This document shows, piece by piece, positions 11,237 to 37,477 of a DNA stretch of 50,854 bases (its first letter is position 1; the number at the start of each line of letters is the position of its first letter). The stretch lies in NCBI GenBank assembly GCA_016931155.1, contig JAFGFJ010000004.1, positions 1 through 50,854 of the forward strand, written 5' to 3'. This stretch comes from Candidatus Dojkabacteria bacterium (lineage in GTDB: Bacteria; Patescibacteriota; Dojkabacteria; B142; JAFGFJ01). The position numbers and the translations under genes were made by a program. A model generated the notes under the pieces. It was not told where the DNA came from. It saw nothing but the letters and a program-made list of their open reading frames with translations, and made no database searches.

Positions 11237-11270
11237 GTTATACCTTTTTGATAAACCAATAGTTAGAGGT

Positions 11271-11843: not shown

Positions 11844-11845
11844 TA

Positions 11846-13291: not shown

Positions 13292-13293
13292 TT

Positions 13294-13764: not shown

Positions 13765-13776
13765 AATAAGCTTAAA

Positions 13777-14232: not shown

Positions 14233-14268
14233 GAGTATAAATTTTATAAACTAAATTAAAACAAATTT

Positions 14269-15489: not shown

Positions 15490-17321
15490 TATGCTTTCTT
15501 CATAAGTCTAACAAGTTCTTCAGGTCTTGTCGTATGCTTTTGAGCATCTTCCACAGAAATTTCTCCCTCTCTGATAAGATCAACAAGAGATCTTTCAAGA
15601 GTAACCATTCCCACATCAAAGCTCGTCTGAATAATGTTATCTATCTGATAGGTCTTTCCCTCACGAATAGCATTTCTAACAGCAGGTGTCCCAATCATTA
15701 TTTCAGTTACAGCACGCCTTCCACCGCTTTTTACAGGGATAAGCCTTTGTGAAATAACAGCAGAAATTACATTTGAAAGCTGTGATCTGATCTGAGCCTG
15801 CTGATGCTGAGGAAAGACGTCAATTATTCTGTCTATTGTCTGAACTGCAGTGTTTGTATGCAAAGTAGCAAACACAAGGTGACCAGTTTCTGCAACTGTA
15901 ATAGCTGCTGCAATAGTCTCAAAATCCCGCATCTCTCCCACAACCACAACATTTGGATCCTGTCTCAATACAGCCCTTAGAGCATTATCCCAGCTCAATG
16001 TATCTTTATGCATTTCCCTTTGATCGACAAGAGATGCTCCTTTGGGATAAACATATTCAATAGGATCTTCTATTGAAATAATATGTTTTCTTTGTTTTGA
16101 ATTTATCTCCTGAACCATTGCAGCAATAGTAGTACTTTTACCACTTCCAGTAGGACCGGTTACTAGAACAAATCCCTGTGGTATCTCAATAAATTCATTG
16201 GCAATTTGAGGAAGTTTCAATTCCTGTATAGTTCGAATCTTCGAAGGCAAGAACCTGAATGCAGCAGCCATATTTCCTTTCTCGTGATAGACATTAATCC
16301 TAAATCTTGCATTCTCTCCATACTCGTAAGACAAGTCTACTTCTTTTGTTTCTTTCAAAGTTTTCTTCTGATCTTCAGTCAGTATTGAAGAAATGAACCT
16401 TTCTATATGTTTCCCTTCTAAAATTGCAGTACCTACCTTGTCAAGAGTTCCGTCCACCCTCATAAAGACCGGATAACCAACCCCAAAATGCAAATCAGAT
16501 GCATTCTTCAAAAGTACGAGATCAAAATACCTTTCTATGGTCGCTGTATTTGGATCTATACTCTGAGCCAGGACTTCTTCTTCAGAAGGCGTTCCGGTTT
16601 CTTCATTAATTTCCATATCATTTGGCTCGGAATCCATAGAGATAGTTTTTATTCGTTCGAATGCTGGAGATTCAAGATCTTCCGTATTAACTTCACTACT
16701 TATAGCAGGAAGCTCCTCAGGTAATTCTCCGGAGATAGCCGAAGTCACTTCCATCTGTTGCAATTCCTTACCCGCTGTCTTCACTTCATTTCCAGAACTT
16801 GTACTCACTGTTTCTTCCAAAGTTTCACTCAAAGGGGGCAAAGTTTCACCAACAGATCCCTCCACCGGAGCAGTATTTGCGGAATTTTCTACAAGAGCTT
16901 CTAAAGATGGAGCCGGGTTATTTCCCGCCTGCTCACCTGCCAATGTTTGTTGAGTACCAACTGGAAGGTCAGACGAAACAGAAGAAATGTCAACTTGTTC
17001 TGAAGAATCACTTGGAAGGGGAGGACCCTTTATCTCCTTGACTCCTTCCCCCGTAATATTAACCTCTTGTCCTGGCAACATCGTTGGAACTTTTTTGCTT
17101 TCCTCATGCTCAATTTCACCATTATTGTAAGACTCTGATGGAGCTTTCATTTCTTCTGACTCAACTCCGGTCTCAACCGAAATCCCATTTTTATCCTGTG
17201 TTGGAGTATTATCCACAGGACTTTGCTGACCTCCAGCCATTCCAGCTTTTGTAACTACTGGCTCAGCAGGAGTAATCTTCTGATCTCCATCATTCTTCTT
17301 TGCAATACTTATAAAGGGCAT
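15489..17321 (-). CDS. pilT: PilT-type ATPase with a long low-complexity N-terminal extension
   Basis: Walker A GPTGSGKSTTIAAM, IEDPIEYV, LRQDPNVVVVGEMRDFETI, ETGHLVFATLHTNTAVQTIDRIIDVFP; about 250 extra N-terminal residues. Confidence 0.95.
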   Translation of the reverse strand: MPFISIAKKNDGDQKITPAEPVVTKAGMAGGQQSPVDNTPTQDKNGISVETGVESEEMKAPSESYNNGEIEHEESKKVPTMLPGQEVNITGEGVKEIKGPPLPSDSSEQVDISSVSSDLPVGTQQTLAGEQAGNNPAPSLEALVENSANTAPVEGSVGETLPPLSETLEETVSTSSGNEVKTAGKELQQMEVTSAISGELPEELPAISSEVNTEDLESPAFERIKTISMDSEPNDMEINEETGTPSEEEVLAQSIDPNTATIERYFDLVLLKNASDLHFGVGYPVFMRVDGTLDKVGTAILEGKHIERFISSILTEDQKKTLKETKEVDLSYEYGENARFRINVYHEKGNMAAAFRFLPSKIRTIQELKLPQIANEFIEIPQGFVLVTGPTGSGKSTTIAAMVQEINSKQRKHIISIEDPIEYVYPKGASLVDQREMHKDTLSWDNALRAVLRQDPNVVVVGEMRDFETIAAAITVAETGHLVFATLHTNTAVQTIDRIIDVFPQHQQAQIRSQLSNVISAVISQRLIPVKSGGRRAVTEIMIGTPAVRNAIREGKTYQIDNIIQTSFDVGMVTLERSLVDLIREGEISVEDAQKHTTRPEELVRLMKKA

Positions 17322-17454
17322 TTTGGACAGTTAATAATTAATTTTTTACTTTAGTAATTTGTCTCAGACAATTTAACAGATTTTTCGATATTTATTAACA
17401 CCTGTATGTTTTCAATTATTTCTCATCTATTTAATTGTGCCGGTTCATCCACGA

Positions 17455-19536
17455 TTATTTATTTGCCACTCTCAATATTTCTTCTACAGTAGTAAGTCCA
17501 TCAAGAGCTTTCATAAAACCATCCTGAATCATCGTTTCCATTCCCTTTTCAATAGCCATCTTCTCAATTTCCTCTACAGAACGGTGCTCCATAACAAGTC
17601 TGCCAATTTTCTCATTGAATCCAAGAGTCTCAAATATCGCCATCCTTCCCTGATACCCGGTGTCTCCACATTTCGGGCAACCCTTTCCTCTGTATAGGTA
17701 TACCTCATTACTCGGAGGTTTTACTGCCTGCATTTTTATAATTTCCGACGAAGGTATCTGGCTGGTATCCTTAGTGCTTACTTTGCCAGGTACAGAAGCA
17801 GGATCAAAAGATTTCGGATAAGAAAACATATCAAATCCCTTGAGACCCGCCAGGACTTTATGTATTTTTTCAACTATTGGAGGTGGGGCGATATATTTTT
17901 CCTTACAGTTTTCGCAGATTTTCCTCACAAGCCTTTGACCGACTGAAACATTAATAGTAGAAGCAAGCAGAAACGGTTCAACCCCCATATCAAGAAGACG
18001 GGGAAGAGCCCCTGCCGCACTATTGGTATGAAGAGTCGCCAGAACCAGGTGACCTGTGAGAGCCGCCTGTACTGCAAGGGCAGCTGTTTCAGCATCACGA
18101 ATTTCTCCCACCATTATTATGTCCGGATCCTGCCTCAAAAAAGATCGAAGACCATTCGCAAAAGAAAGACCTACCTCTTCATTTATTTGCACCTGGGTAA
18201 CCCCTTCTACTCTTATTTCAACCGGATCCTCAAGAGTCATTATATTTACTTCCTGCGTATTTAGTATCTTAAGTGAACTTGCAAGAGTCTGGGTTTTTCC
18301 ACTTCCTGTTGGACCTGTCACAAGAACTATCCCTTGAGTTTTCGCCAGTGCTTCCCTATATGTTTTCAGTGAAGTACCTCTCAGTCCAGTATCTTCGAGA
18401 TTCATAATCCCTCCTCCTTTTTCAAGAAGCCTCATTACAACCTTCTCTCCATATATTGAGGGCATGATTGAAATCCTTATATCTACAGCTCTATCAGCAA
18501 CCTTAATCTGAAACCTGCCATCTTGAGGAACTCGATGTTCATCAATCTTTAAATTTGAAAGAATTTTCAGCCTTGAGACAATAGAGCTTGAAAGCTTCCG
18601 GGGAAGCGTTAACCTCTCAGACAAAACCCCGTTTAGTCTATATCTGACTGCTACCTTACTTTCACGGGGCTCAATATGAATATCAGAAGCGTTAAACCTG
18701 GTAGCATACTCAAGAACCATATTTACAATCCTCGAGACAGGAGCAGATCCTAAGTCTGCCCCGGATAAATCCTGTTCTTTCCCGATAACCGGACCTATCA
18801 CAAAAGCTTCACCGACATCTTCAAGTGCCTCGGTTACTTCTTCTTCAATTTTTACACTGTACTTTGTATCAAGTACCTTCTTTATATCTGTAGGAGTAGC
18901 ATAATAGGGTGCTATTTTCTTGCCGATAACAGCTTCGATGTAATTGACCTTTTGGATATCAATCGGATCGGTCATTGCCACCTTTATGTAATCACCAACC
19001 AGCTCAAAGGCAATTGCACTGTTTTTCTGTGCCGCTTCAAAAGGAATTTTTTGTATTATTTCAGTGGAAATTACTAGCTCACCAAGCTCAATAAAGGGAA
19101 TCCCTGTTATCTCCGATTTCGTCTTGAAAAGATCATTTTCAGAAATCAAACCTTTCTCCACCGCCAGAGATTCAGCACTTCTTCCGGTACTGGCAGACTC
19201 AAACTTCAATGCTTTATACTTTTCAGTATCAATAACTCCTTTCTCAATAAGCTTTGAAAGGACATTAATTGCCCCGGTTCCGTGACTAATCGGAGAAGAT
19301 ACCGGAGCAGACACCGGAGCTTGTGTAGAAACGGTCTGTATTGCACCAGCATCTGACCCCACTGCAGCAGGGACTTCTGCAGGAACAGGATTCTGACCAG
19401 ATGTGTTTGATAGTTGATTTAATCCTGCTGGAGAAACTCCCTTGTCCGGAGCAGATCCATTTACTGGAGCACCCTGAACGAGAGCTTGAAGGTTCGAATC
19501 TAAACTTGAGTTTGTATTATTGACATTGCCGGGCAT
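17455..19536 (-). CDS. pilB: Type IV pilus assembly/extension ATPase
   Basis: GspE/PilB: N-terminal MshEN-like domain, GPTGSGKTQTLASSL, LRQDPDIIMVGEIRDAETA, ALTGHLVLATLHTNSA, zinc motif CPKCGDTGYQGR. Confidence 0.95.
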   Translation of the reverse strand: MPGNVNNTNSSLDSNLQALVQGAPVNGSAPDKGVSPAGLNQLSNTSGQNPVPAEVPAAVGSDAGAIQTVSTQAPVSAPVSSPISHGTGAINVLSKLIEKGVIDTEKYKALKFESASTGRSAESLAVEKGLISENDLFKTKSEITGIPFIELGELVISTEIIQKIPFEAAQKNSAIAFELVGDYIKVAMTDPIDIQKVNYIEAVIGKKIAPYYATPTDIKKVLDTKYSVKIEEEVTEALEDVGEAFVIGPVIGKEQDLSGADLGSAPVSRIVNMVLEYATRFNASDIHIEPRESKVAVRYRLNGVLSERLTLPRKLSSSIVSRLKILSNLKIDEHRVPQDGRFQIKVADRAVDIRISIMPSIYGEKVVMRLLEKGGGIMNLEDTGLRGTSLKTYREALAKTQGIVLVTGPTGSGKTQTLASSLKILNTQEVNIMTLEDPVEIRVEGVTQVQINEEVGLSFANGLRSFLRQDPDIIMVGEIRDAETAALAVQAALTGHLVLATLHTNSAAGALPRLLDMGVEPFLLASTINVSVGQRLVRKICENCKEKYIAPPPIVEKIHKVLAGLKGFDMFSYPKSFDPASVPGKVSTKDTSQIPSSEIIKMQAVKPPSNEVYLYRGKGCPKCGDTGYQGRMAIFETLGFNEKIGRLVMEHRSVEEIEKMAIEKGMETMIQDGFMKALDGLTTVEEILRVANK

Positions 19537-19617
19537 GGACAGATTTATTCACAACAAACAGCTCCTTTGACTGAAGGAGTAAAATTACTTATTCTATCGT
19601 AAGTAAATTACTATTCG

Positions 19618-20352
19618 ATGTCAATTCAGCCTTCCAGCAAAATCATTGAAAGGACAATAAAAAACACAAATTTTGATGATATAGATTCTTTATCGATTAT
19701 TGTTTCCACACAAAACCTGGAACTTCAAAAATATCTTGTTAGCGAACTCACCAGGAAAATAATGGGGGAGGAGAGAAGAAAAGAAAATCCTGACATATTA
19801 AGACTTGAAATATCAGACAGAAATTCAATAGGAATAAATGACATTAAGGGATTGATTGCCAGGTTAAAATACAAACCCTACCAGTCAAAAAGAAAAGTCG
19901 CAATCATTGAAAAAGCAGAAAATATGACATTAGAAGCACAGAATGCTTTCCTGAAAACGCTTGAAGATATACCGGACAGAACTTTCATAATCCTTTCCAC
20001 AGCTAATCACGGAATGCTTTTACCGACAATCCTTTCAAGATGCCGACTTTTCGAAATTAATTCGCAGGAAGAAAAGCAAATTAACTATGATCCTGCTGAA
20101 ATCCTGAAAATGAATCTTTATGAAAGATTTGAGCTAGCTGAAAAAATCTCAAGAATAAAGGAGCCCGGTGAGAAAAGGTCCGAAGTAAATAATCTACTAA
20201 GAAGTTTCATCGAATTCTATAGAGATGATTTAAAAAACAGACCTGAAAATAAAAAAGTCCTGGAGCTGCTCAGTTACACAATGAATGCAATAAACGAAAA
20301 CGTAAATGTGAGGCTTGTTCTTGAAAATTTAATGCTGAATCTGAATGAATAA
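19618..20352 (+). CDS. holB: DNA polymerase III delta'-like (clamp loader) subunit
   Basis: KVAIIEKAENMTLEAQNAFLKTLEDIPDRTFIILSTANHGMLLPTILSRCRLFEI; SRC motif, no canonical P-loop. Confidence 0.8.
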   Translation: MSIQPSSKIIERTIKNTNFDDIDSLSIIVSTQNLELQKYLVSELTRKIMGEERRKENPDILRLEISDRNSIGINDIKGLIARLKYKPYQSKRKVAIIEKAENMTLEAQNAFLKTLEDIPDRTFIILSTANHGMLLPTILSRCRLFEINSQEEKQINYDPAEILKMNLYERFELAEKISRIKEPGEKRSEVNNLLRSFIEFYRDDLKNRPENKKVLELLSYTMNAINENVNVRLVLENLMLNLNE

Positions 20353-20538
20353 TTCTCCGGCAGATGATCATCTCTTTTCTCCAAATACTCAAACAGTTTT
20401 AATGACAACTGAGACTCACTTCAGAGAAATTTTCAAGACATATTTGATCTATTAATCCATTGGAAATGATTCCCCTTTTATTATTTGCCAAGTTGCTCTA
20501 AATATAGGAAAATATTTATACTTCAGACAAATCAAAAA

Positions 20539-21057
20539 ATGAACAAGTCTCAATTCAATAGAACTATTTATCTAATTTATCTCTGGGGAACCGTGTTCCT
20601 TTGGATGGGATTTATCTGGTGGCTTTCTTCAATTCCAAGACTCAGTCTGACTGGAAACGACACAGAACCATTGCTTCGAGCGGGTGGACAACTCCTGGCT
20701 TTTGGCTTTCTATTTCTTTTAATCTACCGTGCACTTCTTACTTCGTTCAAATTTAGAGTAGAGAGACTTGCATTCTGGAGAACAAGAAAAGAAAAATCAG
20801 AGGACACAGAATTTGTATTTATTGTAGAGACACTTCTACTTTTTATTGCAGTTCTCTTGAGCATATTATATGCAATTGTTGACGAATATCATCAGAGCTT
20901 TGTTGATAAATCAATGGCAAGCGCAAGAGACGTACTTCTGGACACAATCGGTATTCTAACGATTGCACTTATTACTTACTCCCTGCCAATAATTGCGGAG
21001 ACAGAAGTTTTTGCAGTCAGGAAACTGTTCAAGAAAAAACAACTTAAAGCAGATTAA
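20539..21057 (+). CDS. VanZ-like membrane protein
   Basis: IWWLSSIPRLSLT...LLAFGFLFLLIYRAL...IVDEYHQSFVDKSMASARDVLLDTIGI; start adjusted to ATG 20539. Confidence 0.75.
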   Translation: MNKSQFNRTIYLIYLWGTVFLWMGFIWWLSSIPRLSLTGNDTEPLLRAGGQLLAFGFLFLLIYRALLTSFKFRVERLAFWRTRKEKSEDTEFVFIVETLLLFIAVLLSILYAIVDEYHQSFVDKSMASARDVLLDTIGILTIALITYSLPIIAETEVFAVRKLFKKKQLKAD

Positions 21058-21064
21058 CTGACTC

Positions 21065-21097
21065 TTTTTTATTTTTTATTTTTTATTTTTTATTTTA
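21065..21097 (+). repeat. Heptameric tandem repeat (TTTTTTA)x4 plus TTTTA
   Basis: Direct reading: tttttta tttttta tttttta tttttta tttta between the VanZ-like stop and the SPFH start. Confidence 0.95.
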
Positions 21098-21102
21098 CTA
21101 AG

Positions 21103-21867
21103 ATGGAGTTTGGATTTTTTCTCACTTGTCTGAGTGTTATTGGCTTTTTATTCTTTTTAATGATAATCGGAAATATAAGGGTCATAAATGAATACGAAAG
21201 AGGGGTTCTTTTTACTTTTGGAAGATTCTCAAAAGTTGTTGGACCTGGACTCACATTTGTAATCCCAATTGCCCAGAGACTTTCCAAAATAGATATAAGA
21301 ACAAAAACTGTTGATCTTGCGGAACAGGAAGCAATAACAAAAGATAATGTATCAACAAAAATCAGTGCAGTTCTGTATTACAAAATTAATGACGCCGCAA
21401 AATCAATAATAATAGTTGAGAGTTCTGCATGGGCAACTTCCCAGCTTGCTGAAACAACAATGAGAACTATTGTTGGAGAATTTTCTTTGGACGAACTACT
21501 GGCTCACAGAAACAAAGTTGCTCAAAAGATTGAGGAAATAGTGGAAAAGACAACTGAAGAGTGGGGAATAGAAATCCAGGGAGTTGAACTGAAAGATGTA
21601 ATCCTCCCCGATACCATGAAGAGAACCATAGCAAAACAGGCTGAGGCGGAAAGAGAAAAGAGAGCTACGATAATAAACTCTGAAGGAGAAGTTATCGCTT
21701 CACAAAATCTTGCCAGAGCAGCAAAAACAATGGCAACAGCACCCGGAGCACTTCATCTCAGAACATTGAACTCAATCAATGACATCTCCTCAGACCAGTC
21801 AAACACTGTAGTATTTGCTGTGCCAATGGAAATACTGAGAGCCCTGGATGGGTTTAAGAAAAAATAG
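21103..21867 (+). CDS. SPFH/Band 7 (stomatin/slipin-like) membrane protein
   Basis: VINEYERGVLFTFGRFSKVVGPGLTFVIPIAQRLSKIDIRTKTVDLAEQEAITKDNVSTKISAVLYYKI...ELKDVILPDTMKRTIAKQAEAEREKRA. Confidence 0.93.
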   Translation: MEFGFFLTCLSVIGFLFFLMIIGNIRVINEYERGVLFTFGRFSKVVGPGLTFVIPIAQRLSKIDIRTKTVDLAEQEAITKDNVSTKISAVLYYKINDAAKSIIIVESSAWATSQLAETTMRTIVGEFSLDELLAHRNKVAQKIEEIVEKTTEEWGIEIQGVELKDVILPDTMKRTIAKQAEAEREKRATIINSEGEVIASQNLARAAKTMATAPGALHLRTLNSINDISSDQSNTVVFAVPMEILRALDGFKKK

Positions 21868-22072
21868 CTGGAGCGACTGGATATGCTTAATACAAAATAG
21901 TTTATGGAAATGACAAGCGAGACGCAAGGTGTTATTTTAGAGCATTTTTAGATCACTATCACCACTTTTGTATCGGGAGATTTTTTGAGGAACTAGTTAA
22001 GTCCTGTTATGGTAAAGATAAAGGGGAAAAAAATAGTTAGTTTTCCGGTGACTACATAGTTCCGATGAAAAA

Positions 22073-22102
22073 TTTACTTTCTTCTAGTTTTTCTGCTACA
22101 AT
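22073..22102 (+). promoter_or_regulatory. Predicted extended -10 promoter for gyrB
   Basis: TTTACT (22073-22078), 18-nt spacer, TACAAT (22097-22102) preceded by TGC (extended -10). Confidence 0.55.
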
Positions 22103-22107
22103 AAACA

Positions 22108-22119
22108 GGTTAATTAACC
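22108..22119. promoter_or_regulatory. Perfect 12-bp palindrome GGTTAATTAACC at the predicted gyrB transcription start
   Basis: Direct reading; lies 5-16 nt downstream of the predicted -10. Confidence 0.6.
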
Positions 22120-22134
22120 GCTTTTATTAAACTT

Positions 22135-22153
22135 TCCCCGTCCGAAACGGGGA
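22135..22153 (+). promoter_or_regulatory. Stable hairpin in the gyrB leader (TCCCCGT-CCGAA-ACGGGGA)
   Basis: 7-bp perfect stem with a 5-nt loop, followed by a T-rich stretch; may be a 5'UTR element or terminator-like. Confidence 0.6.
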
Positions 22154-22185
22154 CTGTATTTTCTTTAAGGATTTTTTCGAGTTAA

Positions 22186-24153
<1,968 letters not shown>

Positions 24154-24163
24154 AATTTTAATA

Positions 24164-26935
24164 ATGGCAGATAATAATACAAAAAAGAATAAGAACCCTG
24201 AGGAAGAAGAAATAAAGAAAAAGAAAATTCAAAATGGGTCAAAGAACGACGAAACAGGCTTAAATAGCGTGAAACAGTCTGTAGTCGAGAAAAACAACGT
24301 TAATGAAAACAAGGAGGAAAACCCGATCGATTTCCCTCTTCAAGGAATCAGAAAGGGTGGAGTAATTGATCAGGATATTTCCGGAATAATGAAACGCTCT
24401 TACATCAACTATGCGATGAGCGTAATAGTAGCTCGTGCTCTTCCAGATGTTAGGGACGGACTCAAGCCTTCACAAAGAAGAATATTAGTCACTATGAAAG
24501 ATCTCAGCCTCGCACCAGGCGGAAGATACCGAAAAAGTGCGAAAATTGCTGGAGATACTTCAGGAAACTACCACCCGCATGGAGAAGCTATTGTCTATCC
24601 TACGATGGTAAAAATGGCACAGGATTTTAATATGCGCTATCCACTGGTGGACGGACAGGGAAACTTCGGTTCAATTGACGGGGACAACGCCGCCGCAATG
24701 AGATACACAGAGGCTCGGATGTCACGCTTGTCATGGGCAATGATGGATGATTTGGATAAAAGTACCGTCGAATATATACTCAACTATGACGGATCAAGAA
24801 AAGAACCCTCGGTACTTCCGGCTGTTGTTCCAAACCTCCTCTTGAATGGTGGTGATGGAATTGCAGTTGGCATGGCAACAAAAATTCCTCCACACAATCT
24901 GACCGAACTCATTGATGCTATTACTGCAATGGTAGAGAAGGGGAATGAGTGGAAAGAAAGCCGAAAAACTGGAGCCAGTAAATATTTTGAAAACATAAGA
25001 ACATTGCAGGATCTGGAGAAATTGCCCGGTGGGAGATTTCCTGAGTTTATTACCACAATAGAGGTAGATGAACTTATGAGATTTATTCCAGGACCTGATT
25101 TTCCTACTGGTGCTCAGATTTATGACGCAAAGGAAATTGCAATGGCATACGCAACAGGTAGAGGAAGAATTTTGATTCGTGCTGTGGCAGAAATTGAGGA
25201 GGGAAAAGGAGGAAAATTCCAGATTATTATTACTCAAATTCCTTATCAAGTAAACAAAGCAAGACTTGTTGCCAAAATGGCAGAGCTTGTCAGAGCGAAA
25301 AAAATAGAGGGTATTGCAGACATTCGGGACGAATCTAACAGAGAAGGTATAAGAATAGCCGTTGAAGTAAAAAGAGATGGAAAACCAAAAACAATCCTTA
25401 ATAAGCTATATAAGTATACTGAGATGCAGAAGGCATTCAATGCCAATATGCTGGCTCTTGTAAACGGAGAACCGAAGGTCTTGAACCTCAAGAGAATACT
25501 GGAGCTTTTCATTACGTTCAGGCAGGAGATATCAATTAGGAGGGCCGAATTTGATCTTGCCAGATCAAGAGAACGGGAACATATCCTTGAGGGATTAATG
25601 ATCGCCCTTGATCATCTGGATGAGGTAATAAGGACTATCAGAGAGTCAAAAGACGCTGATATGGCGAAAGCAAACTTAATGAAGAAGTTCAAGCTCAGTG
25701 AAATCCAGTCACAGGCAATACTCGACATGCAACTCAGAAGGCTTGCAGCATTGGAAAGAAAGAAGATCCAGGACGAATACAAACAAATAAAACTTCATAT
25801 CAATGAACTACTCGAGCTTCTTTCAAGTCCTGAGAAGATCCTGCAACTCATTAACGATGAGTTGCAAATAGTAAAAGAAAAATATGGGGACAAAAGAAGA
25901 ACAAAAGTCTTTAAGGGAGGAGTAGACGAGTTTAGTGAAGAAGACCTGGTTGCAAAGGAAGATGTGATTGTTACGGTTAGTGAGCAAGGCTACATAAAAA
26001 GGATCAAAGATATTACCTACAAAATACAAAGAAGGGGAGGAAAAGGAGTAAGGGGTATGGAAACCAAGGAAGATGATGCAGTCAGCCATATTTTCAGCTG
26101 TAGCACACACGATGATATCTTATTTTTCACAAATAGAGGTAAAGTCTACCAAAAGAAGGTATACGAAATACCAGAGTTTGGAAGGACAGCTAAAGGACAA
26201 CCTGTTATTAACCTCATAAACATAGAACAGGGAGAGCTGGTTACAAGCATACTTACAAAAACCAAAGAGGGGGTACTGGGAGAAGACGTGAAACAAGAGC
26301 AGGAGATGGAATCTGAGCAATCGGGAAAGAAGTATAAACACCTGTTTATGGCAACAAGAAAAGGCACAGTGAAAAAGACAGGTCTTGCCGATTTCGAAAA
26401 CATAAAAAATAACGGTCTTATAGCCATAAAACTCGATCAAGACGATGAGCTTGCCTGGGTCAAGCCAACAACAGGAAATTGTGAAATTCTTCTGATAACC
26501 AAAAACGCCAAGTCAATCCACTTCCATGAAAAAGATGTCCGACCGACTGGAAGAGCTACAATGGGAGTTAAAGGGATAAATATGAAAACAAAAGGAGATG
26601 AGGTAATTGCAATGGATGTAATTCGGAAAAAAGAAGACTTTATGCTTACAATATCGGAGAACGGCTTCGGAAAAATAACAAAACTGGAGCAGTTTCCACT
26701 ACAAAGAAGAGGTGGTGGTGGTGTTTTTGCTGCAAGAACAAACGATAAAACAGGAACCCTTGCTTCCGCAAGAATTTTAGATCACCCTGATCTTGAACTT
26801 CTAATAGTCAGCCAACACGGGCAAGTGGTTAGAATCCCGACAGTGCAGCTTCCGGAGAGAAGCAGACAAACAGCCGGAGTAATTTTGATGAAACTCAACA
26901 AAGGAGACAAGGTTGCAGCTATTGCTATTATATAG
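24164..26935 (+). CDS. gyrA: DNA gyrase subunit A
   Basis: RSYINYAMSVIVARALPDVRDGLKPSQRRIL, AAMRYTEARMS, GyrA-box QRRGGKG; low-complexity N-terminal extension of about 65 residues. Confidence 0.98.
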   Translation: MADNNTKKNKNPEEEEIKKKKIQNGSKNDETGLNSVKQSVVEKNNVNENKEENPIDFPLQGIRKGGVIDQDISGIMKRSYINYAMSVIVARALPDVRDGLKPSQRRILVTMKDLSLAPGGRYRKSAKIAGDTSGNYHPHGEAIVYPTMVKMAQDFNMRYPLVDGQGNFGSIDGDNAAAMRYTEARMSRLSWAMMDDLDKSTVEYILNYDGSRKEPSVLPAVVPNLLLNGGDGIAVGMATKIPPHNLTELIDAITAMVEKGNEWKESRKTGASKYFENIRTLQDLEKLPGGRFPEFITTIEVDELMRFIPGPDFPTGAQIYDAKEIAMAYATGRGRILIRAVAEIEEGKGGKFQIIITQIPYQVNKARLVAKMAELVRAKKIEGIADIRDESNREGIRIAVEVKRDGKPKTILNKLYKYTEMQKAFNANMLALVNGEPKVLNLKRILELFITFRQEISIRRAEFDLARSREREHILEGLMIALDHLDEVIRTIRESKDADMAKANLMKKFKLSEIQSQAILDMQLRRLAALERKKIQDEYKQIKLHINELLELLSSPEKILQLINDELQIVKEKYGDKRRTKVFKGGVDEFSEEDLVAKEDVIVTVSEQGYIKRIKDITYKIQRRGGKGVRGMETKEDDAVSHIFSCSTHDDILFFTNRGKVYQKKVYEIPEFGRTAKGQPVINLINIEQGELVTSILTKTKEGVLGEDVKQEQEMESEQSGKKYKHLFMATRKGTVKKTGLADFENIKNNGLIAIKLDQDDELAWVKPTTGNCEILLITKNAKSIHFHEKDVRPTGRATMGVKGINMKTKGDEVIAMDVIRKKEDFMLTISENGFGKITKLEQFPLQRRGGGGVFAARTNDKTGTLASARILDHPDLELLIVSQHGQVVRIPTVQLPERSRQTAGVILMKLNKGDKVAAIAII

Positions 26936-26955
26936 CAGGTTTTTCCCCAAAATTA

Positions 26956-26984
26956 TTGACAGTTTCGAAAATTAAAGCTAACAT
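26956..26984 (+). promoter_or_regulatory. Predicted promoter of the GreA-like leader or small RNA
   Basis: Perfect TTGACA (26956-26961), 17-nt spacer, TAACAT (26979-26984). Confidence 0.55.
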
Positions 26985-27154
26985 CTCCAGAGTGTATTTC
27001 GTTGGCAACTACATAGAGTATATTTCATAAATATAAAGGCAAATATGTAACGTTGCAAAATAGAGGTCGTTTTAGTGGGTACAAACCTGCAATGATAATG
27101 AGTAAATATTCTAAGAAAATTGTTGATATTGTAGCAGTATTAATTGATTCTGCG

Positions 27155-27221
27155 TAGGGAGGTTATAAATTGTCTATTTGATCCGCCTCCCTAAGCAAAG
27201 TGAACAGGGAGGTTTTTTTTA
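27155..27221 (+). terminator. Intrinsic terminator with a mutually exclusive upstream antiterminator segment
   Basis: TAGGGAGG (27155-27162), CCTCCCTA (27186-27193), AGGGAGG (27206-27212), then T8. The middle arm can pair with either flank. Confidence 0.7.
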
Positions 27222-27240
27222 TTTTTTATGATAATGTGTT

Positions 27241-27669
27241 ATGTCAAATCTAAGAGACGAGTTAAAGAGCAAGCTGGATGAATTGAAAATAGAGCTTCAG
27301 TCAATCACAAATGATATTGATATTTCGAGAAGGGAGGATCAGGAAGAAGACGTAGCCGTAACTCGAGATCTTTTGGATCAAAAAACTATGCTTATTCAGC
27401 AGATCGCTGACATTGAGGATGACCTGGATACATATAGGGAGAACAACACCACAAGTATAGTTGATATGGGAAATGCGGTATCTCTAGAGATAGGAGGTTT
27501 AACGAAAGAGATTACTATTGTTCCTTCGGCTCAAGCTGATCCCAGCCGTGGCTATATTTCCTCAGGCTCACCACTTGGCATAGCACTTGTTGGAAAGAAA
27601 AAAGGAGAAACTATATTATTGGAAACACCAGCTGGTAGACAGTTCTACCAGATAGTGGAAATAAAATAG
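27241..27669 (+). CDS. GreA/GreB-family transcription elongation factor
   Basis: N-terminal coiled coil, C-terminal MGNAVSLEIGGLTKEITIVPSAQADPSRGYISSGSPLGIALVGKKKGETILLETPAGRQFYQIVEI. Confidence 0.88.
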   Translation: MSNLRDELKSKLDELKIELQSITNDIDISRREDQEEDVAVTRDLLDQKTMLIQQIADIEDDLDTYRENNTTSIVDMGNAVSLEIGGLTKEITIVPSAQADPSRGYISSGSPLGIALVGKKKGETILLETPAGRQFYQIVEIK

Positions 27670-27760: not shown

Positions 27761-28819
27761 TCAATCTTCTTTAAGTGGATGGTACTTTTGATGAGTATCC
27801 TCTGCAAACTTATCACTAGCGTGTACATAGCGAGTTGTAGTTTGGAGGGATTCATGTCCTAATAAATGCTGAATTGCAGCCGGACTTGCCCCTTGTTCCG
27901 CAAGATATGTAGCAAATCCGTGTCTCAAACTGTGAGCACTGGTGGGAGCAATTATCCCAAGCCTTTTCCTGTATTCAACTATTTTGGCTTGAAGATAATT
28001 TGTAGATACTCTTACCTTATATAAATCTTCCTGAGCTTTGGCTCTTCTTCCTCCTCTATAAGGAATAAAAAGAGCCGGGTATTGGTCATCACGTATACCC
28101 AAATACCTTCCCAGATAAGTCTTTGCACGAGGAGTTAAATAAACAAACCTCTGTTTTTTTCCTTTCCCCAATATAAATATCTTGGCATCTTTTATTTCTT
28201 CAGACTCTCCCTTCAAGTTGATATGTTCGCGATTTAGATTAGTAAGTTCAGAAATCCTCATACCTGTCGAAAACAAAACCTCTAGCATCGCACGATTTCT
28301 AAATCTTACTTTTTTCTTTTTCTCATATTCCTCAGGAGCTTCAATAAGTTTAATAAGTTCATTCAGCTCAGCAACCTGTGAAATCTTCCTTTCAGTTTTT
28401 ATTAGTTTCACCGCCTCAGGAGGAACCGGTACTTTGTGATCAAAATTTATCAAATATGTTAAAAATGATCTTAGCGATGATAAAATCCGATTAATTGAAC
28501 GACTATCCAGTGCACCAACTTTACCAGAATTAGTTTTAGGGGCAACAGGGCTCGATAACCTCGAATCGCCTTGACCATTGGTAGTTTCCAGCCCCTTGTA
28601 TTCTTTCAGAATAATTAAATGCCTGCCTTGTCTTAAGAATCCTTTAAATTGACTTATGATATTTTTATCTACTTGTTCAAACTCAATTCCTTCTGAGTTC
28701 AAAAAGGCTTCGAGCAAGGTTAGATCTCTTTCATAGTTTTCAATTGTTTCCTTGCTGTAATTATTATTAAGGAGATCAAGTAGAAATTCATCCTTATATG
28801 GCAGTTGTACTTTTCCCAT
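27761..28819 (-). CDS. Tyrosine recombinase, XerC/XerD/XerA-like
   Basis: Catalytic motifs: R in LFSTGMRISELTNL, HSLRHGFATYLAEQG, LLGHESLQTTTRYVHAS; start taken as MGKVQLPYKDEFL (28819). Confidence 0.92.
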   Translation of the reverse strand: MGKVQLPYKDEFLLDLLNNNYSKETIENYERDLTLLEAFLNSEGIEFEQVDKNIISQFKGFLRQGRHLIILKEYKGLETTNGQGDSRLSSPVAPKTNSGKVGALDSRSINRILSSLRSFLTYLINFDHKVPVPPEAVKLIKTERKISQVAELNELIKLIEAPEEYEKKKKVRFRNRAMLEVLFSTGMRISELTNLNREHINLKGESEEIKDAKIFILGKGKKQRFVYLTPRAKTYLGRYLGIRDDQYPALFIPYRGGRRAKAQEDLYKVRVSTNYLQAKIVEYRKRLGIIAPTSAHSLRHGFATYLAEQGASPAAIQHLLGHESLQTTTRYVHASDKFAEDTHQKYHPLKED

Positions 28820-29067: not shown

Positions 29068-29094
29068 CCAGTGTTTTACTGAGTGACATTACAT

Positions 29095-29243: not shown

Positions 29244-29271
29244 ACTGAGTATAAGGGTGATTATACACAGT
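29244..29271. other. Candidate dif site (Xer recombination target), 11-6-11 inverted repeat
   Basis: ACTGAGTATAA-GGGTGA-TTATACACAGT: 10 of 11 arm positions complementary, 6-nt centre, inner ATAA/TTAT as in E. coli dif. Confidence 0.6.
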
Positions 29272-29558: not shown

Positions 29559-30377
29559 TTAAAGAAGCGTCCCGTTGATGCCAAATGGTGCAAAAAGAAC
29601 TGCAATTATTAGAATAACAAGGAAAAGGAAACTGTATTCTATCCAGGTAAAAAACCCAATTCTCTCCCTAATCTCTAGACCCACACCAAGGGTCATATAG
29701 ACTATTACACTGAGGATTAGAGCAACATACGCAACAGACAGCGGCCAAATACTAAGAACAAAAGAGGCAAAAAGCACAGTGAAAGAAATGATTGAAACTG
29801 AGAGTGTTAGTTGTGACTTACTAAGCTGTATCATCCAGAAACCTGAATATGTCAGATAAAAAGTGAGCATAAATATAAGACCCAGCCTGATAACTGGAGA
29901 TATTCCTAAAGAAAAAAGAATTGAATAACCGAGGTAAGATGCAATCAGAATTAAAACATACTGTGCAGCTTTTCCAGCCTGCCCCAATGGGATCTTTGTA
30001 AGAACAGAAACATTCAAAATATTTCCCGTTAGGATAGTAATATAGCTTACCAACCAGAACAACAGACCTGAAACCACTAAAAATGGAATTCTTCCAAGCC
30101 CTCTAAACGATGTGAATAGCAATAGCTCAGAGAAAAAGGAAAAAATAAAAGTTATAACAGATGGAAAGGTAAGCACAGAAAGGAATCTCCCACGATTCAT
30201 ATTGAAGTTGATAGTCCAGTAGAAACCTAGAAGCATGATAGATGATAGAAGTGCGGATCTGATAAAATAGTGCAAAACTTCTTCTTCCGTTATAAATTCA
30301 AAACTGATTAGCTGCAAGCCTACAAAAAAGAAAGAAAGAATTGTTGTTATAACTACAGATCGTGTTCTTGTTGTCAT
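29559..30377 (-). CDS. Hypothetical polytopic membrane protein
   Basis: Multiple hydrophobic segments; overlaps the ruvB stop. Confidence 0.75.
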
Positions 30378-31408
30378 TTTATTAACTTCTGTTGTGAATT
30401 AGTATTTTCACTATAATCAAACCCCAGGTGTTCATACGCTTTTTTCGTTACTACCCTGCCCCGTGGTGTTCTTTCCAAAAAACCTTCCTTCATAAGATAT
30501 GGCTCATAAACGTTTGACAATGTTTCAATATCTTCGGAAACCCCCGCTGATAAAGTCGTAAGACCAACCGGTCCTCCATCAAACTTCTCAATAATTGTAG
30601 TTAGAATTTTTCTATCCAATGTATCAAGTCCATTTACATCAATATCCATAATGTCTAGAGCTTTCCTTGCTAGATCAGATCTAATCATTTCAACTCCTTC
30701 TACGTGAGCTAGATCCCTCACTCTTTTCAGAAGCCTCACGGCGATTCTAGCCGTACTTCTGGATCTTTTCGCAATCTCTTCAGCGGCTTCCTCATCAATA
30801 TCAATATCCAGAAATCTTGCCTTCTGTTTTACAATCTCCTTCATTTCTTCAAGTGAATAAAAGTCTAACCTGAAATCAGCTCCGAATCTATCTCTAAGAG
30901 GAGATGAAAGAAGACTTATCCTGGTTGTCGCTCCAACAATTGTAAACCTGGGAAGATCAAGCCTCAGAGTCTTAGCAGAAGGTCCTTTACCGATTATTAT
31001 ATCAATAGCTCTGTCTTCCATTGCTGGATATAGAACCTCCTCAACAATTTTGTTCAACCGATGTATTTCATCAATAAAAAGTATACCGTTTTCTGAAACA
31101 TTCGTTAGGATAGATGCAAGATCTCCCTGTCTTTCTATTGCTGGACCGGAAGTGATAAAAATTGGAGACTTCATTTCGTTTGCCAAAACGTGTGCAAGAC
31201 TTGTTTTACCTAGCCCAGGAGGACCATGGAATAAAATGTGATCAATTGGCTCTTCTCTGCTCTTTGCCGCGTCAATCATTATTTTTAATATCTCTTTTTC
31301 TTTTCCACGTCCGATTACTTCGTCAAAATTCCTCGGTCTTAGACTTTTTTCAATTCTCTCTTCCTCATTGCCCTCTAATTGTGGATCCACTACTCTATCC
31401 GTAGCCAT
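30374..31408 (-). CDS. ruvB: Holliday junction branch migration ATPase RuvB
   Basis: [86 protein letters not shown]. Confidence 0.97.
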
Positions 31409-31413
31409 TATTA

Positions 31414-31989
31414 TTATTTTTGAAGAAATTTTTTAACTACATCCTGCGGAGTTTTTACATCTGCATCTTCTTTTATTACTTTTTTAACCTTGTCATCAAT
31501 CTCATTTTTTCTAAATCCTAAGACCATAAGAGCAGCAATGGATTCGTCATACAAATCTATATTTATACTAGATAAGTCCTCTCCTCTTGCGAGATAAGTA
31601 TCCTTCCCAACTTTATCTTTAAGATCAACAATAATCTTTTCTGCGGTTCTTGCCCCTACTCCACTTATTTTGAGTCCTTTTGGATTGTTTAATTTTATTG
31701 CCTCAATTATACCTCCAACTCCAAGCTCAGTAAGTAGAATAAGTGCAGTTTTTGGTCCTACCCCGGAAACCGTTATCAATCTCTCAAAAAAAGAAAGCTC
31801 TTCTGAAGTCTCAAAACCAAAAAGCCTTAACTCCTGTTCTCTAACGTGAGTATATACAAAAAATTCAGCAGTATCTTCTTCCCTGTAAGAAATTTTCCCA
31901 ACCTCGATTTTATAGCCAACCCCATTTGCGTTAACAATAAGATAACCGTCACCAATAAATTTTACTTTCCCCGAAATATAACCAATCAT
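31414..31989 (-). CDS. ruvA: Holliday junction branch migration protein RuvA
   Basis: [55 protein letters not shown]. Confidence 0.96.
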
Positions 31990-32106
31990 AGTAGCAATAG
32001 AGAGACAAGAAATGATATCAGAAGGGTTATTTTTTTTCCAGAAGGATCAGAAGCTTTTACCTGGCTGATAATAGATACTCAATAAAGAATTCTGAGAATT
32101 CTATTC

Positions 32107-32589
32107 TCAGCTTACACAACTAAGATGACAAACCGCAACAGCAAGTGCATCTGCTGCATCATCAGGTTCAGGAATACTTTTTAGAGATAGTAATGACTTT
32201 ACCATTTTTTGAACTTGTACCTTTTCAGCACGACCATAACCACAAACCGAAATTTTTACCTGTAAAGGAGTATAGTCGAAGACCCTCAGTCCAGAGTTCA
32301 CTGCAGAAAGAATAGCCACACCTCTAGCTTGTCCCACAGTGATTATTGTCTTTTGATTTTTAAAGAAATACAGATTTTCAATTGCAACTTCCTCAGGCTT
32401 AAATTCCTTGATAAGAGCAGATAGTTCATCATAAATATTCTTGAGGCGAAACGACATTTCCTCTCCTGCAGGAGTAGTAATTACTCCATAGCTATAGACC
32501 TTATATTTCCCGCTCTTAACATTTTTATCCTGCTCAACAATAGCCCACCCTGTTGTTGCAAGCCCGCAATCTATTCCGAGTACCTTCAT
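32107..32589 (-). CDS. ruvC: Holliday junction resolvase RuvC
   Basis: MKVLGIDCGLATTGWAIVE, VAIENLYFFKNQKTIITVGQARGVAIL, CGYGRAEKVQVQKMV, PDDAADALAVAVCH. Confidence 0.96.
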   Translation of the reverse strand: MKVLGIDCGLATTGWAIVEQDKNVKSGKYKVYSYGVITTPAGEEMSFRLKNIYDELSALIKEFKPEEVAIENLYFFKNQKTIITVGQARGVAILSAVNSGLRVFDYTPLQVKISVCGYGRAEKVQVQKMVKSLLSLKSIPEPDDAADALAVAVCHLSCVS

Positions 32590-32607
32590 ATAATATGATA
32601 CAGTTAA

Positions 32608-33834
32608 TTACTCACCTATAATTATATTACTCTCATTTTTACTCACATTCAGTATCCCTATTCCCGCTGATTTTGTTTCCCCAACATTACCACTCTTTCC
32701 AGGATTAAAACCAACAACAATATTGTCAAATAAATAAGAAATGCCCACATAACCTGCCGACAGTTTAACATCTATTCCAGTTGAGTTATCATAAAGATGA
32801 CTTTCTATAGCCTGATTGCCATTTTCATCAATCCTTTTCGTTGACACAAAAATAAGACTATTCTTTGTATCAACACTAAGGGCAACGACATCATCCAACT
32901 CTTGGAGAACTTCAACTTGTGTTTTTGTCTTAATATTTCTTATTGTAAGGTTTGGCTCATCCTTTTTATAGGGCCAATAGACTACTCTGTTGTCATCAAG
33001 CCAGTGAACGTATTTACCTTGAAAACTATCCATAACCTTCCCATCAAGTCCTATGATATTTACAGACAAGTACTCTTGTTCCTCTCCGCTCTCACTCGAC
33101 GTCGGATCAATTGACTTGCTGACTGTATCTTCAACAACAATTGCTTTTCTGTCTGGACTGAGCTTAAGAGAAAAGCCAGCATCATCTGTTAAAATAGTGG
33201 GAGGAAAACCACCTGTCTGAAAAAGCTTATCTGTTTCTTTTGTGTCCATATTGATCAAATAAACAGCATCATTCAGAACAAATTGATAAGCAATTCTGCC
33301 TACACTGTCATATGCAAAAGTGTGTTTATTCCCTTCAGAGGAAACTTCAAGTTTTGTCAAAGTATCAGCAGAAGTAAAATCAAACATATATACTTCTGAA
33401 GCTGACCCAGTACTATCATATGATTCAACAATAGTTTGATCGAAAGTAAACAATGTATCTTTAATACAGGAAATATCTTTGTAGCCTTCTACGTTTGAAG
33501 AAATCAGTGTACTCTTCTCCAGATCGATATCATATTTGTATAGTTCACACCCCCAAATATAATAAAACAACCTTCCCTCTTTAACAGTTGGAGCTGGAAC
33601 TGGCTGTTCCCTAAATTCATCGATGGCTTTATTTAGCTCTTTTTCCCTTGTTTTGTCAAACTGTATCTCGAGTGCTAAATATACAAAAAAAGCAAGACAA
33701 GCAAAGAATATTAAAATTCCAGGAATGACAAAAACAATAGAAGACAACTTGCGCTTTTTCTTATCCAGCAAGGCTTTCTTCCTTGCCTGATCTGCCAGCA
33801 TTAAATTTGATTGCTTTATTTCCGGGGTAGACAT
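32608..33834 (-). CDS. Hypothetical single-TM protein with a beta-propeller-like exodomain
   Basis: One N-terminal TM (IVFVIPGILIFFACLAFFVYLAL); repeated strand-rich segments such as FSLKLSPDRKAIVVED. Confidence 0.7.
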   Translation of the reverse strand: MSTPEIKQSNLMLADQARKKALLDKKKRKLSSIVFVIPGILIFFACLAFFVYLALEIQFDKTREKELNKAIDEFREQPVPAPTVKEGRLFYYIWGCELYKYDIDLEKSTLISSNVEGYKDISCIKDTLFTFDQTIVESYDSTGSASEVYMFDFTSADTLTKLEVSSEGNKHTFAYDSVGRIAYQFVLNDAVYLINMDTKETDKLFQTGGFPPTILTDDAGFSLKLSPDRKAIVVEDTVSKSIDPTSSESGEEQEYLSVNIIGLDGKVMDSFQGKYVHWLDDNRVVYWPYKKDEPNLTIRNIKTKTQVEVLQELDDVVALSVDTKNSLIFVSTKRIDENGNQAIESHLYDNSTGIDVKLSAGYVGISYLFDNIVVGFNPGKSGNVGETKSAGIGILNVSKNESNIIIGE

Positions 33835-33839
33835 ACAAC

Positions 33840-34637
33840 TTAACTAAGATCTACATTTGTCCAAACATTTTGCACATCTTCAAGCTCCTCAAGCCTTTCC
33901 ATGAAATTTTCTACTTTTTCTTTTTTGTCCTCAGCAAGTACTACTTTTTCTTTTGCAATTTTTATTATTTCTGCTGTTTCTATTTTAAAACCATTTTTCT
34001 CTACCGCTTCACGAACTTTTGCAAGGTCAGCTTTTGAAGTAAATATTTCGAAGTAGTCTGTATTATTCCCTTCATCATCCTGATCCGAATACTCCTGAAT
34101 ATCTTCAACACCTTCTATTTCAAACATTTCAAGCTCAGCACTCTGATTATCAATTTTTTCATATGTGTCTTCCTTTCCAAACTTTTCAGATTTTTTTAAT
34201 TTCGCCGGCATAACCGATATCAATCCTTTTTCTTCAAATTGCCAAGATACACTGCCTGGACCAGCCATCTTACCTCCCATACTTTCAACCGTTGTCCGCA
34301 CATTATTTACTGTTCTGTTTGGATTATCAGTCTGTGTATCTATCAGGACAGCAATACTACCAGGGCCGTATGCCTCATAGGTCACCTTCTCTATCCTCCC
34401 CGACTTTAATTCACCTGTTCCCTTTTTTACAGCACGTTCAACATTGTCAGAAGGCATATTTGCAGCTTTTGCCTTATCAATTGCAAGTCTCAAAGTAAAA
34501 TTAAAATTCGGATCGCCACCACCTTCCTGAGCCGCAAGAGTAATTGCCTGACTAAACTTAGTAAATAATGCCCCTCTAGCCGCATCATTTGCTCCTTTTT
34601 GTCTCTTTATTTTTGCCCACTTTGAGTGACCAGACAT
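33840..34637 (-). CDS. yebC: YebC/PmpR family protein
   Basis: MSGHSKWAKIKRQKGANDAARGALFTKFSQAITLAAQEGGGDPNFNFTLRLAIDKAKAANMPSDNVERAVKKGTGE. Confidence 0.97.
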   Translation of the reverse strand: MSGHSKWAKIKRQKGANDAARGALFTKFSQAITLAAQEGGGDPNFNFTLRLAIDKAKAANMPSDNVERAVKKGTGELKSGRIEKVTYEAYGPGSIAVLIDTQTDNPNRTVNNVRTTVESMGGKMAGPGSVSWQFEEKGLISVMPAKLKKSEKFGKEDTYEKIDNQSAELEMFEIEGVEDIQEYSDQDDEGNNTDYFEIFTSKADLAKVREAVEKNGFKIETAEIIKIAKEKVVLAEDKKEKVENFMERLEELEDVQNVWTNVDLS

Positions 34638-34688
34638 ATTTATTTTAATAATTCAAAACAGTCATCTGAGTTTATCATATTTAACAAA

Positions 34689-36092
34689 CTAATTTATGCC
34701 ATTGTCACCAATCACAACAACAATATCCCCTGTATGCCTGTAGGGAAAAACATTTTCAATTAAAACAATTTTGGTACCAAAAATATTTTCAAGCTCCTTG
34801 ATTGTCTCGATATATTTTACTGGTTCTTTTGTGTATACAATCGTCTCAGAATAATGATCTCTGCTGTTGCCAACATTGATTACCTTAGCACCAACATTTG
34901 AAATCCATCTGGCCTTTTTTGTTCCAATCCCTGGAACAGCCGTGCCATTCAGCAATTCTATCCTTGCTTGCTCACGTTGTACCTCAACATTAAAAAATAT
35001 CTTTGTTACATCCTCATCTATACGCTCAATCATAGGAATTTTCCTTCCTCCCTCACTCATATAACTTGATGTCTCTTTTGTATAACCTGCTTTTACTCTG
35101 TCAAAACTTACTTCACGCAGCAACCATATTAATCTTCTAAATTCACCAGGTTCAAAATTTGACCTTACACTCCTGGAGATTTCTTCTGATGCGTTCTTTA
35201 CTTCATATAGCTTGTCAATTTCATCAAGACTCAGTACCAGCCCCTTTATAGCAGAAAACTGATGAGCATGTTTAGTATCCCTACCTTGAGTATCGGCCAT
35301 TACTATAGACATAAAATCTTCCTCATCAACCCTATGCTTTCCTTTCTCAATTTCAAAAATGCCCTTTTCATTTCTAATATCTTCATCCCTCAATTCTTCC
35401 ACCACTTCGACCTCCACCTTTCCATAAACAGCCAGAAGCGTCTGGAAATCTTCTTTATCAATACTCAAATACCTGTCTATTCTGACTGAAAGTAAACTTT
35501 CAACAGCATCTACCATAAGATCCAGACAGACCGGCTCTTCCCTTAGTCTACCCCAATTATATAGCTTCTTGAGAGAGGACTGTTTGTTTTCACTCGCTAT
35601 GTAGACCTCGATATCCGGATCAACAACAAAAATTCCGAGTGTTTTTTTCTCCGGGTCAAGAGCCAATACAGAAAGTGAATCAACAAAAGCAATATCCTCA
35701 TTTTTTCTATCAAGTCCAATCAGTAAAACATTTATTCTTCTCTCCCCCTTCCATACTTCTTCTCTTTCACTACGATCTCCAATCTCTCTACTAAATTTTA
35801 TTGAGTAAAAACCCTTTATATTTGGATAAACTACAAAAATTATTGGAGAGAAAAAAACAAGAGAGAATACAATAACCAACACTGTCCTAACTAGCCGTGA
35901 ATCCACTTTACCTTTGAAAATGTTTTTTCTTTTTGTGGATCTACTGTGTGTTCTTTTATACCAAAATCTACTGATCCTGGCTGTCAAAGAAGAAAAAATG
36001 TTTTGTTTTTGAGCAAAAGGCTTAGTCCCTTCTCGTCTTTTTACCTTTCTTTTTTCCCGAAGGGATCGCTTCTTTTTTAGAAACATCTTCAA
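34689..36092 (-). CDS. LytR-CpsA-Psr-like protein with a C-terminal LytR_C-like domain
   Basis: INVLLIGLDRKNEDIAFVDSLSVLALDPEKKTLGIFVVDPDIEV and ARIELLNGTAVPGIGTKKARWISNVGAKVINVGN. Confidence 0.75.
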   Translation of the reverse strand: MKMFLKKKRSLREKRKVKRREGTKPFAQKQNIFSSLTARISRFWYKRTHSRSTKRKNIFKGKVDSRLVRTVLVIVFSLVFFSPIIFVVYPNIKGFYSIKFSREIGDRSEREEVWKGERRINVLLIGLDRKNEDIAFVDSLSVLALDPEKKTLGIFVVDPDIEVYIASENKQSSLKKLYNWGRLREEPVCLDLMVDAVESLLSVRIDRYLSIDKEDFQTLLAVYGKVEVEVVEELRDEDIRNEKGIFEIEKGKHRVDEEDFMSIVMADTQGRDTKHAHQFSAIKGLVLSLDEIDKLYEVKNASEEISRSVRSNFEPGEFRRLIWLLREVSFDRVKAGYTKETSSYMSEGGRKIPMIERIDEDVTKIFFNVEVQREQARIELLNGTAVPGIGTKKARWISNVGAKVINVGNSRDHYSETIVYTKEPVKYIETIKELENIFGTKIVLIENVFPYRHTGDIVVVIGDNGIN

Positions 36093-37065
36093 TTATATCT
36101 TTTATTTTGACCTTGGAATCTTTATCATAAATGAAGCTCATTACTTCTGTTGGTATTCCGATATCTATCGTTTTTTTTCTTCCAGCTTTTGCATCTCTCA
36201 GGAATGGAAGAGTCAGAGAACTTGAGTGCAGCATAAGTCTTGGTGCCCTTTCTCCACCATAAACAACATCCCCGGCAATCGGAAAACCAAGAGAAGATAG
36301 ATGCACTCTTATCTGATGAGTTCTACCTGTCTTGGGACTGGCCTCAACAAGAGAGTACTTTCTGTCTTCTCCAAATATTCTTAGAGATCTAAATACTGTT
36401 TCTGCAAGTTTTCCTCCTCTTTCCACTACTGCAAATTTTTTCCTTGCCTTTGGGTTTCTTCCCAGAAAATTTCTAACCACCAGCTCGTTTCTACCTGCAA
36501 ACAAACTACTTATATCTCCAGTCACAATTGCGTAATATTTTTTTTCAACTTTTTGTTCACTGAAAAGCTTGGAATAATACCAAAGTGCCTCGTTTGTTTT
36601 GGCTACCATAATCAATCCGGATGTTTCTTTATCGAGCCTATGAATAAGCCCAGATCTGAAACTTATTCCAACATCTTTAAGACTAGCATAATGACCTAGT
36701 AGAGCGTTTAACAAAGTCCCCTGCCAGTTTCCTGTTGCCGGATGCACTGTCATTCCTGCAGGTTTATTAACTATCACCAGATTGTCATCTTCATATACAA
36801 TGTCCAATCCAATATCCTCTGGCTCAACTTCAACCTGATGATCAAAAATTTTGGGGGTAATTTCAATGGTATCACCCTTTTTTACCCTGTAATTTGCCTT
36901 AAATTCGACAGTGTTATTTATCATTACGCAATTACCTTCTATCTGTTTTTTCACGAAAGACCTACTCCAATCGTTGTTGTAGAAGGTAAGGTATAGATCA
37001 AGCCTCTTTCCCTCAACACTCTTTTCAACCTTGAATTTTCTTTTTTTAGTTTGTATTTCTGACAC
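36022..37065 (-). CDS. RluA/RluD-family pseudouridine synthase with an S4 domain
   Basis: VIVNKPAGMTVHPATGNWQGTLLNALL, GLIHRLDKETSGLIMVAKTNEA, PKTGRTHQIRVHLSSLGFPIAGDVVYGG. Confidence 0.95.
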   Translation of the reverse strand: MSEIQTKKRKFKVEKSVEGKRLDLYLTFYNNDWSRSFVKKQIEGNCVMINNTVEFKANYRVKKGDTIEITPKIFDHQVEVEPEDIGLDIVYEDDNLVIVNKPAGMTVHPATGNWQGTLLNALLGHYASLKDVGISFRSGLIHRLDKETSGLIMVAKTNEALWYYSKLFSEQKVEKKYYAIVTGDISSLFAGRNELVVRNFLGRNPKARKKFAVVERGGKLAETVFRSLRIFGEDRKYSLVEASPKTGRTHQIRVHLSSLGFPIAGDVVYGGERAPRLMLHSSSLTLPFLRDAKAGRKKTIDIGIPTEVMSFIYDKDSKVKIKDIIEDVSKKEAIPSGKKKGKKTRRD

Positions 37066-37477
37066 TTTTTCTATTTTTAATAAACAAAATTGTAACTATT
37101 ATCAGAGAAGTAGTGATTAATAAATCAGCAATGTTAAAGCTTGGAATTATTCCAATATTTATATAGTCCACTACTCCTTCTCTAAGCACTCTATCTATCA
37201 AATTACTCAGCCCTGCTCCAAGTAAAATTAACAAGGGAACAAGATAAGTTTTGTCTTCAAGTTTAATCATAAATATAGTCAAAATTACCCCAAATAAATT
37301 TAACAAAAGTCCTATCGGAATTTCTTTGCCAAAAATTCCAAATGCAACACCTTTGTTCAATACATAATCTTTTTCATTAATTGTTACAAAAAGTTTAACA
37401 GTTTGATCAATAAAGATGATCGTAAATAGTAATATCCATTCCCACAGAGTTCTTTTTATTGTGCCCTTTGATCTCAC
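37046..37477 (-). CDS. lspA: Lipoprotein signal peptidase
   Basis: LSNLIDRVLREGVVDYINIGIIPSFNIADLLI conserved Asp dyad context; TM-rich. Confidence 0.9.
   Translation of the reverse strand: MRSKGTIKRTLWEWILLFTIIFIDQTVKLFVTINEKDYVLNKGVAFGIFGKEIPIGLLLNLFGVILTIFMIKLEDKTYLVPLLILLGAGLSNLIDRVLREGVVDYINIGIIPSFNIADLLITTSLIIVTILFIKNRKSVRNTN

Follow-up and report, generated by a model that had tools for sequence, protein, structure and literature searches.

The 28-bp inverted repeat considered here is very probably (with a rough probability of 0.9) a dif site served by a dojkabacterial Xer recombinase, as the initial annotation had proposed for the window, i.e., the whole 50,854-nucleotide stretch of Candidatus Dojkabacteria DNA that was analysed (contig C7 of the 10-contig assembly G000). 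This reading, made from sequence comparison, draws on arms of 11-6-11 layout, a single copy conserved across the class, a recombinase with an intact R-K-H-R-H-Y set, the presence of FtsK-gamma, and KOPS-type octamers that converge on the site and switch strand there (ambiguously in one relative, G017). Sites of this kind are already known; what would be new is the off-terminus placement, which is more probable than not for the class. The site and its surroundings in the window are as follows:

29244..29271, plus strand: candidate dif site, 28 bp, with arms at 29244-29254 and 29261-29271 and the centre GGGTGA at 29255-29260 (evidence: sequence, copy number, conservation and octamer switch)
27761..28819, minus strand: xer, a 352-aa XerC/D-like tyrosine recombinase (NCBIfam and Pfam matches; the open frame reaches 28867)
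22201-24153, plus strand: gyrB (context only)
24164-26935, plus strand: gyrA (context only)
30374..32589, minus strand: ruvB, ruvA and ruvC (context only)

The site reads ACTGAGTATAA-GGGTGA-TTATACACAGT; its 11-6-11 layout, with 10 of 11 arm positions paired, is as first described, and a direct count returned the number given earlier for its likeness to E. coli dif, 13 of 22 arm bases. By itself, the 11-6-11 geometry is weak support, as the window holds four such repeats in which 10 or more of the 11 arm positions pair, where Markov-shuffled sequence holds 0.8 ± 0.9; it is class-wide conservation and the FtsK-type octamer strand switch at the site that lift this repeat above chance. A count of copies, one of the checks first suggested, found the 28-mer only once in the 971,167-base assembly (10 contigs), even with up to three mismatches. 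Rfam gave no match on 28700-29700. A second inverted repeat, TAACCTATAGTT-10-AACTATAGGTTA, lies at 29426-29459 and contains a DnaA-box-like TTATCCACA at 29436-29444; the relatives checked show no such repeat next to their site.

Conservation in relatives bears the dif reading out, with about 80 of the 88 genomes of the class (Dojkabacteria/WS6) keeping a version of the 28-mer, nearly always in one convincing copy. A pattern with a fixed core and free outer arms, two mismatches being allowed, was run on 97 genomes, 88 of them of the class, and matched 76, of which 75 belong to the class; with the pattern reversed as a control, there were about a dozen matches over all 97. A looser pattern adds diverged copies in G002, G004, G022, G052, G055 and G073, and the class count is given as about 80 of 88 on account of doubtful two-mismatch matches (e.g., G049 and G082). 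Two copies on two contigs occur in G083, a genome that is 7% contaminated. The relatives' contigs with the full site were deposited as Candidatus Dojkabacteria/WS6 or Patescibacteria-group MAGs, and kinship with them would place the window's genome in the same class. What speaks against a dif site is that seven or so genomes of the class lack a detected one, three of them with a xer orthologue: neither site nor xer orthologue was found in G006, G009, G051 and G080, and in G039, G061 and G087, where xer is present, the fixed-core and looser pattern searches did not find the site.

Within the site, the inner ATAA/TTAT ends are invariant except in one doubtful sequence, the outer arm bases often co-vary between the arms (ACT..AGT, ACC..GGT, ATT..AAT, ATC..GAT), and several relatives carry perfect palindromes with 11/11 arm pairs. 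This variation among relatives contradicts a pair of DnaA boxes or an origin, a reading suggested by the right-arm TTATACACA, which fits TTATNCACA, and by the TTATCCACA at 29436, i.e., two matches in one gap, and now close to negligible: the deciding arm base varies (TTATACTCA, TTATACCCA, TTATACGCA), the window holds five matches against 2.5 expected, and dnaA, near which the octamer source of the window's genome appears to lie, sits on contig C9.

In many genomes, the distance from the site to xer downstream of it is a few hundred bases, which would also suit a xer operator or a mobile-element attachment site. However, G013, G016, G022, G031, G035, G037, G044, G045 and G054 retain a single copy at 22-205 kb from xer or on a different contig; the site is thus not a promoter element of xer, and an operator role is contradicted by these distant copies. 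As for mobile elements, eight viral contigs carry the 17-mer core and none of them the arms. Neither role explains the chromosome-scale octamer switch described below, and both together are very improbable.

The adjacent gene encodes a genuine Xer-type recombinase, as first annotated, with all six catalytic residues intact: an alignment of 23 orthologues shows no change at R188, K219, H296, R299, H322 or Y331. Its best model scores are those of XerC and XerD, both under cut-off, and among solved structures it scores 71.5 bits against XerD and 45.6 bits against XerH. A C-terminal HxxxHP is kept in the orthologues and aligns with the HQQHHP tail of XerD. The window Xer would be the cognate recombinase of the 28-bp site, predicted to bind and cleave it. 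In orthologues of families f9 and f14-f17, the matches are interrupted around residues 76-97 and 244 and the open frames are longer, pointing to putative variable insertions.

Whether one recombinase or two act on the site turns on a further gene outside the window:

L003 1165-2040 (G000:C4): second Xer-like paralogue, with orthologues in G011, G017, G018 and G030

On the model of XerCD, this paralogue could occupy one of the two arms, and it is indeed found in 15 of the 17 relatives searched, while the arms differ from each other in many genomes. Its active site is altered, however: an N replaces the first H of HxxR (NxxR) in all five copies aligned, there is no clear hairpin lysine, and the first Arg is a K in G017. 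Moreover, it was not found in G015 and G057, both of which keep the site, and the outer arm bases co-vary palindromically. A two-recombinase site is therefore unlikely, and the paralogue is possibly a regulatory or inactive recombinase. Given this altered active site and the near-palindromic arms, a single recombinase acting on both arms is favoured; to that extent the comparison with single-recombinase systems drawn earlier stands. A third tyrosine recombinase of 234 aa lies on another contig (L001 1312-2013, G000:C9); its nearest models are XerA and integron integrase, below their cut-offs.

FtsK-gamma was found in 16 of 16 genomes searched. The octamer was chosen from known KOPS/SRS forms and then by an unbiased search for words in sequence retrieved from G011, G017, G018 and G028, which pointed to GAGNAGGG-like words. 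In the window, its occurrences converge on the site:

10633, 13118, 24935, 25196 and 27327 (span 10633..27334), plus strand: GAGNAGGG left of the site and pointing to it, with one opposite at 18409
31654, 36027 and 37211 (span 31654..37218), minus strand: GAGNAGGG right of the site and pointing to it, with none opposite

The best strand-switch interval of GAGNAGGG in the window, 27,327-31,654, thus holds the site (29,258). A strand switch at the site is seen in the window and nine relatives, three of these with a distant xer. The best intervals are 255,735-257,044 in G011 (site at 256,790), 757,448-770,637 in G018 (761,665), 134,022-165,538 in G020:C3 (157,129), 371,830-396,265 in G022 (394,921, with xer at 579 kb), 716,088-736,023 in G035 (733,545, with xer at 939 kb) and, among the matches listed, 48,028-53,265 in G031:C9 (50,957, with xer on another contig). 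In G003:C3, the best switch point among the matches listed lies 1.4 kb from the site, and in the sampled sequence of G028 and G030 the octamer switches strand at the site. Left of the site in G053:C2, 18 of 20 octamers among the matches listed point to it. Taken together, switch points this close to the site would arise by chance with a probability of about 1e-7; the figure is rough, as G011 and G018 had contributed to the choice of octamer.

When 168 permutations of the octamer were scored over the stretch from site to skew maximum and over the window, GAGNAGGG shared the top score and the reversed octamer GGGANGAG was near neutral. In G011, G018 and G035, 46 of the 58 octamers located between the site and the skew maximum are directed towards the site; gene orientation adds to this polarity, and antisense occurrences lean the same way. 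G017 is an exception, with a clear polarity right of the site and a mixed one between site and skew maximum. TGGTGG, TGTTGG and like words track the GC-skew terminus and not the site; not every skewed word thus switches at dif.

Together, these elements would resolve chromosome dimers. Homologous recombination would fuse sister chromosomes into a dimer; septal FtsK, which is predicted to read GAGNAGGG, would follow the polar octamers aimed at the site from both sides and bring its two copies together; the neighbouring Xer would bind the two 11-bp arms and, on activation by FtsK-gamma, would exchange strands across the 6-bp centre to yield two monomers.

The known pairs are XerCD/dif with FtsK/KOPS in E. 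coli and CodV-RipX/dif with SpoIIIE/SRS in B. subtilis. Both share with Dojkabacteria a 28-bp, single-copy 11-6-11 site with ATAA/TTAT inner ends and FtsK-gamma, together with polar G-rich octamers, GGGNAGGG and GAGAAGGG, that converge on the site. Unlike XerCD and CodV-RipX, Dojkabacteria have only one recombinase with an intact active site and nearly palindromic arms. They resemble XerS/difSL and XerH/difH in a recombinase of ~350 aa that often adjoins its site and apparently works alone; the dojkabacterial system differs from these in its 6-bp centre and XerC/D-like sequence. By comparison, difSL is 31 bp long with an 11-bp centre (PMC5357621). Identity with XerS/difSL was rejected on the 6-bp centre and on the XerS model, which gives the window Xer 84 bits against a cut-off of 267. 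In Thermococcales, the position of the XerA/dif site is conserved relative to oriC but is not at 180 degrees, polar words peak at dif and xer is sometimes non-adjacent (PMC2958812). Dojkabacteria likewise appear to combine an 11-6-11 site, one recombinase, a conserved off-180-degree position, polar words and a xer that is not always adjacent; unlike the archaeal system, they possess FtsK-gamma and a KOPS-like octamer, and their site, at ~80-105 degrees from the skew origin, falls well before the skew maximum. The likeness is one of layout only, as membership of the XerA family is excluded by a score of 145.6 bits for the window Xer on the XerA_Arch model, below its cut-off of 220.

The dif sites of bacteria are normally located at the replication terminus, and the initial annotation had supposed that the window contains it, with genes converging on the site as a pointer. 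The local convergence is real and the local GC skew turns from plus to minus near 27.7 kb. However, this skew has another turn near 9 kb and goes with the gene strand; it thus locates no terminus in the window. The whole-genome skew check proposed at the time was carried out on relatives, by change-point fits of GC skew (G018, G011 and G028 sampled, G017 whole except for masked stretches), and it places the shift point elsewhere. The site lies 86 (G011), 100 (G018), 105 (G017) and 79 degrees (G028) from the skew minimum, i.e., ~80-105 degrees, and 84, 61, 58 and 53 degrees, respectively, from the skew maximum, or 15-23% of the chromosome, the bootstrap ranges of the maximum being wide in G018 and G028. 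In G030 and G035, the distance to the minimum is 84 and 87 degrees, and the skew maxima are uncertain. A terminus at the site is not supported by the signs of GC and keto skew, which are the same on both sides of it in the near-complete relatives G011, G017, G018 and G028; in this lack of a skew switch, which counts against the dif reading, the four differ from the usual bacterial case. In Proteobacteria and Firmicutes, dif and the skew shift point agree within 1.4% of the genome (one sigma), with outliers at up to 3% (PMC3025954), and the dif of Thermococcales lies 122-142 degrees from oriC (PMC2958812). In G011, G017 and G018, 50-98 degrees separate dnaA from the GC-skew minimum; the gene thus does not mark the origin there.

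It is possible, if doubtful, that the site is where replication ends after all and that the skew of the relatives misleads, owing to rearranged or misassembled MAGs or to gene-strand effects. In G018, G011 and G028, gene orientation on either side tends to be towards the site, with a weaker GC skew beyond it, and the uncertain maxima of G030 and G035 would leave room for such a terminus. Against this stand the constant signs of both skews across the site in four relatives and the similar distance from site to skew minimum in six genomes. The off-terminus reading thus places the site of the relatives at roughly a quarter of the chromosome from the origin, apart from the GC-skew terminus; carrying this over to the window's own chromosome is an extrapolation. 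As in Thermococcales archaea, the location of dif and of its octamers in Dojkabacteria seems independent of the replication terminus. With moderate probability, the class has an FtsK/KOPS-dif axis stably uncoupled from the origin-terminus axis, in which one Xer serves a dif roughly a quarter turn away from the origin, the octamers follow dif, and the forks would pass dif and meet elsewhere.

Whether replication ends at dif, or whether dif and the sequences that steer FtsK merely lie near the terminus, has been debated on the basis of bacteria in which both coincide. A class with dif and octamers 15-23% of the chromosome away from the skew terminus would, if the placement is true, separate the two naturally. 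A literature search, with subscription papers and preprints outside its scope, found no earlier report. The Candidate Phyla Radiation class gains a site for dimer resolution whose consensus can be searched for, and the octamer switch offers an independent check for locating diverged dif sites such as that of G022. Among the neighbouring genes, gyrA encodes a protein of 923 aa whose profile matches are split around residues 260-297, suggesting a possible insertion there.
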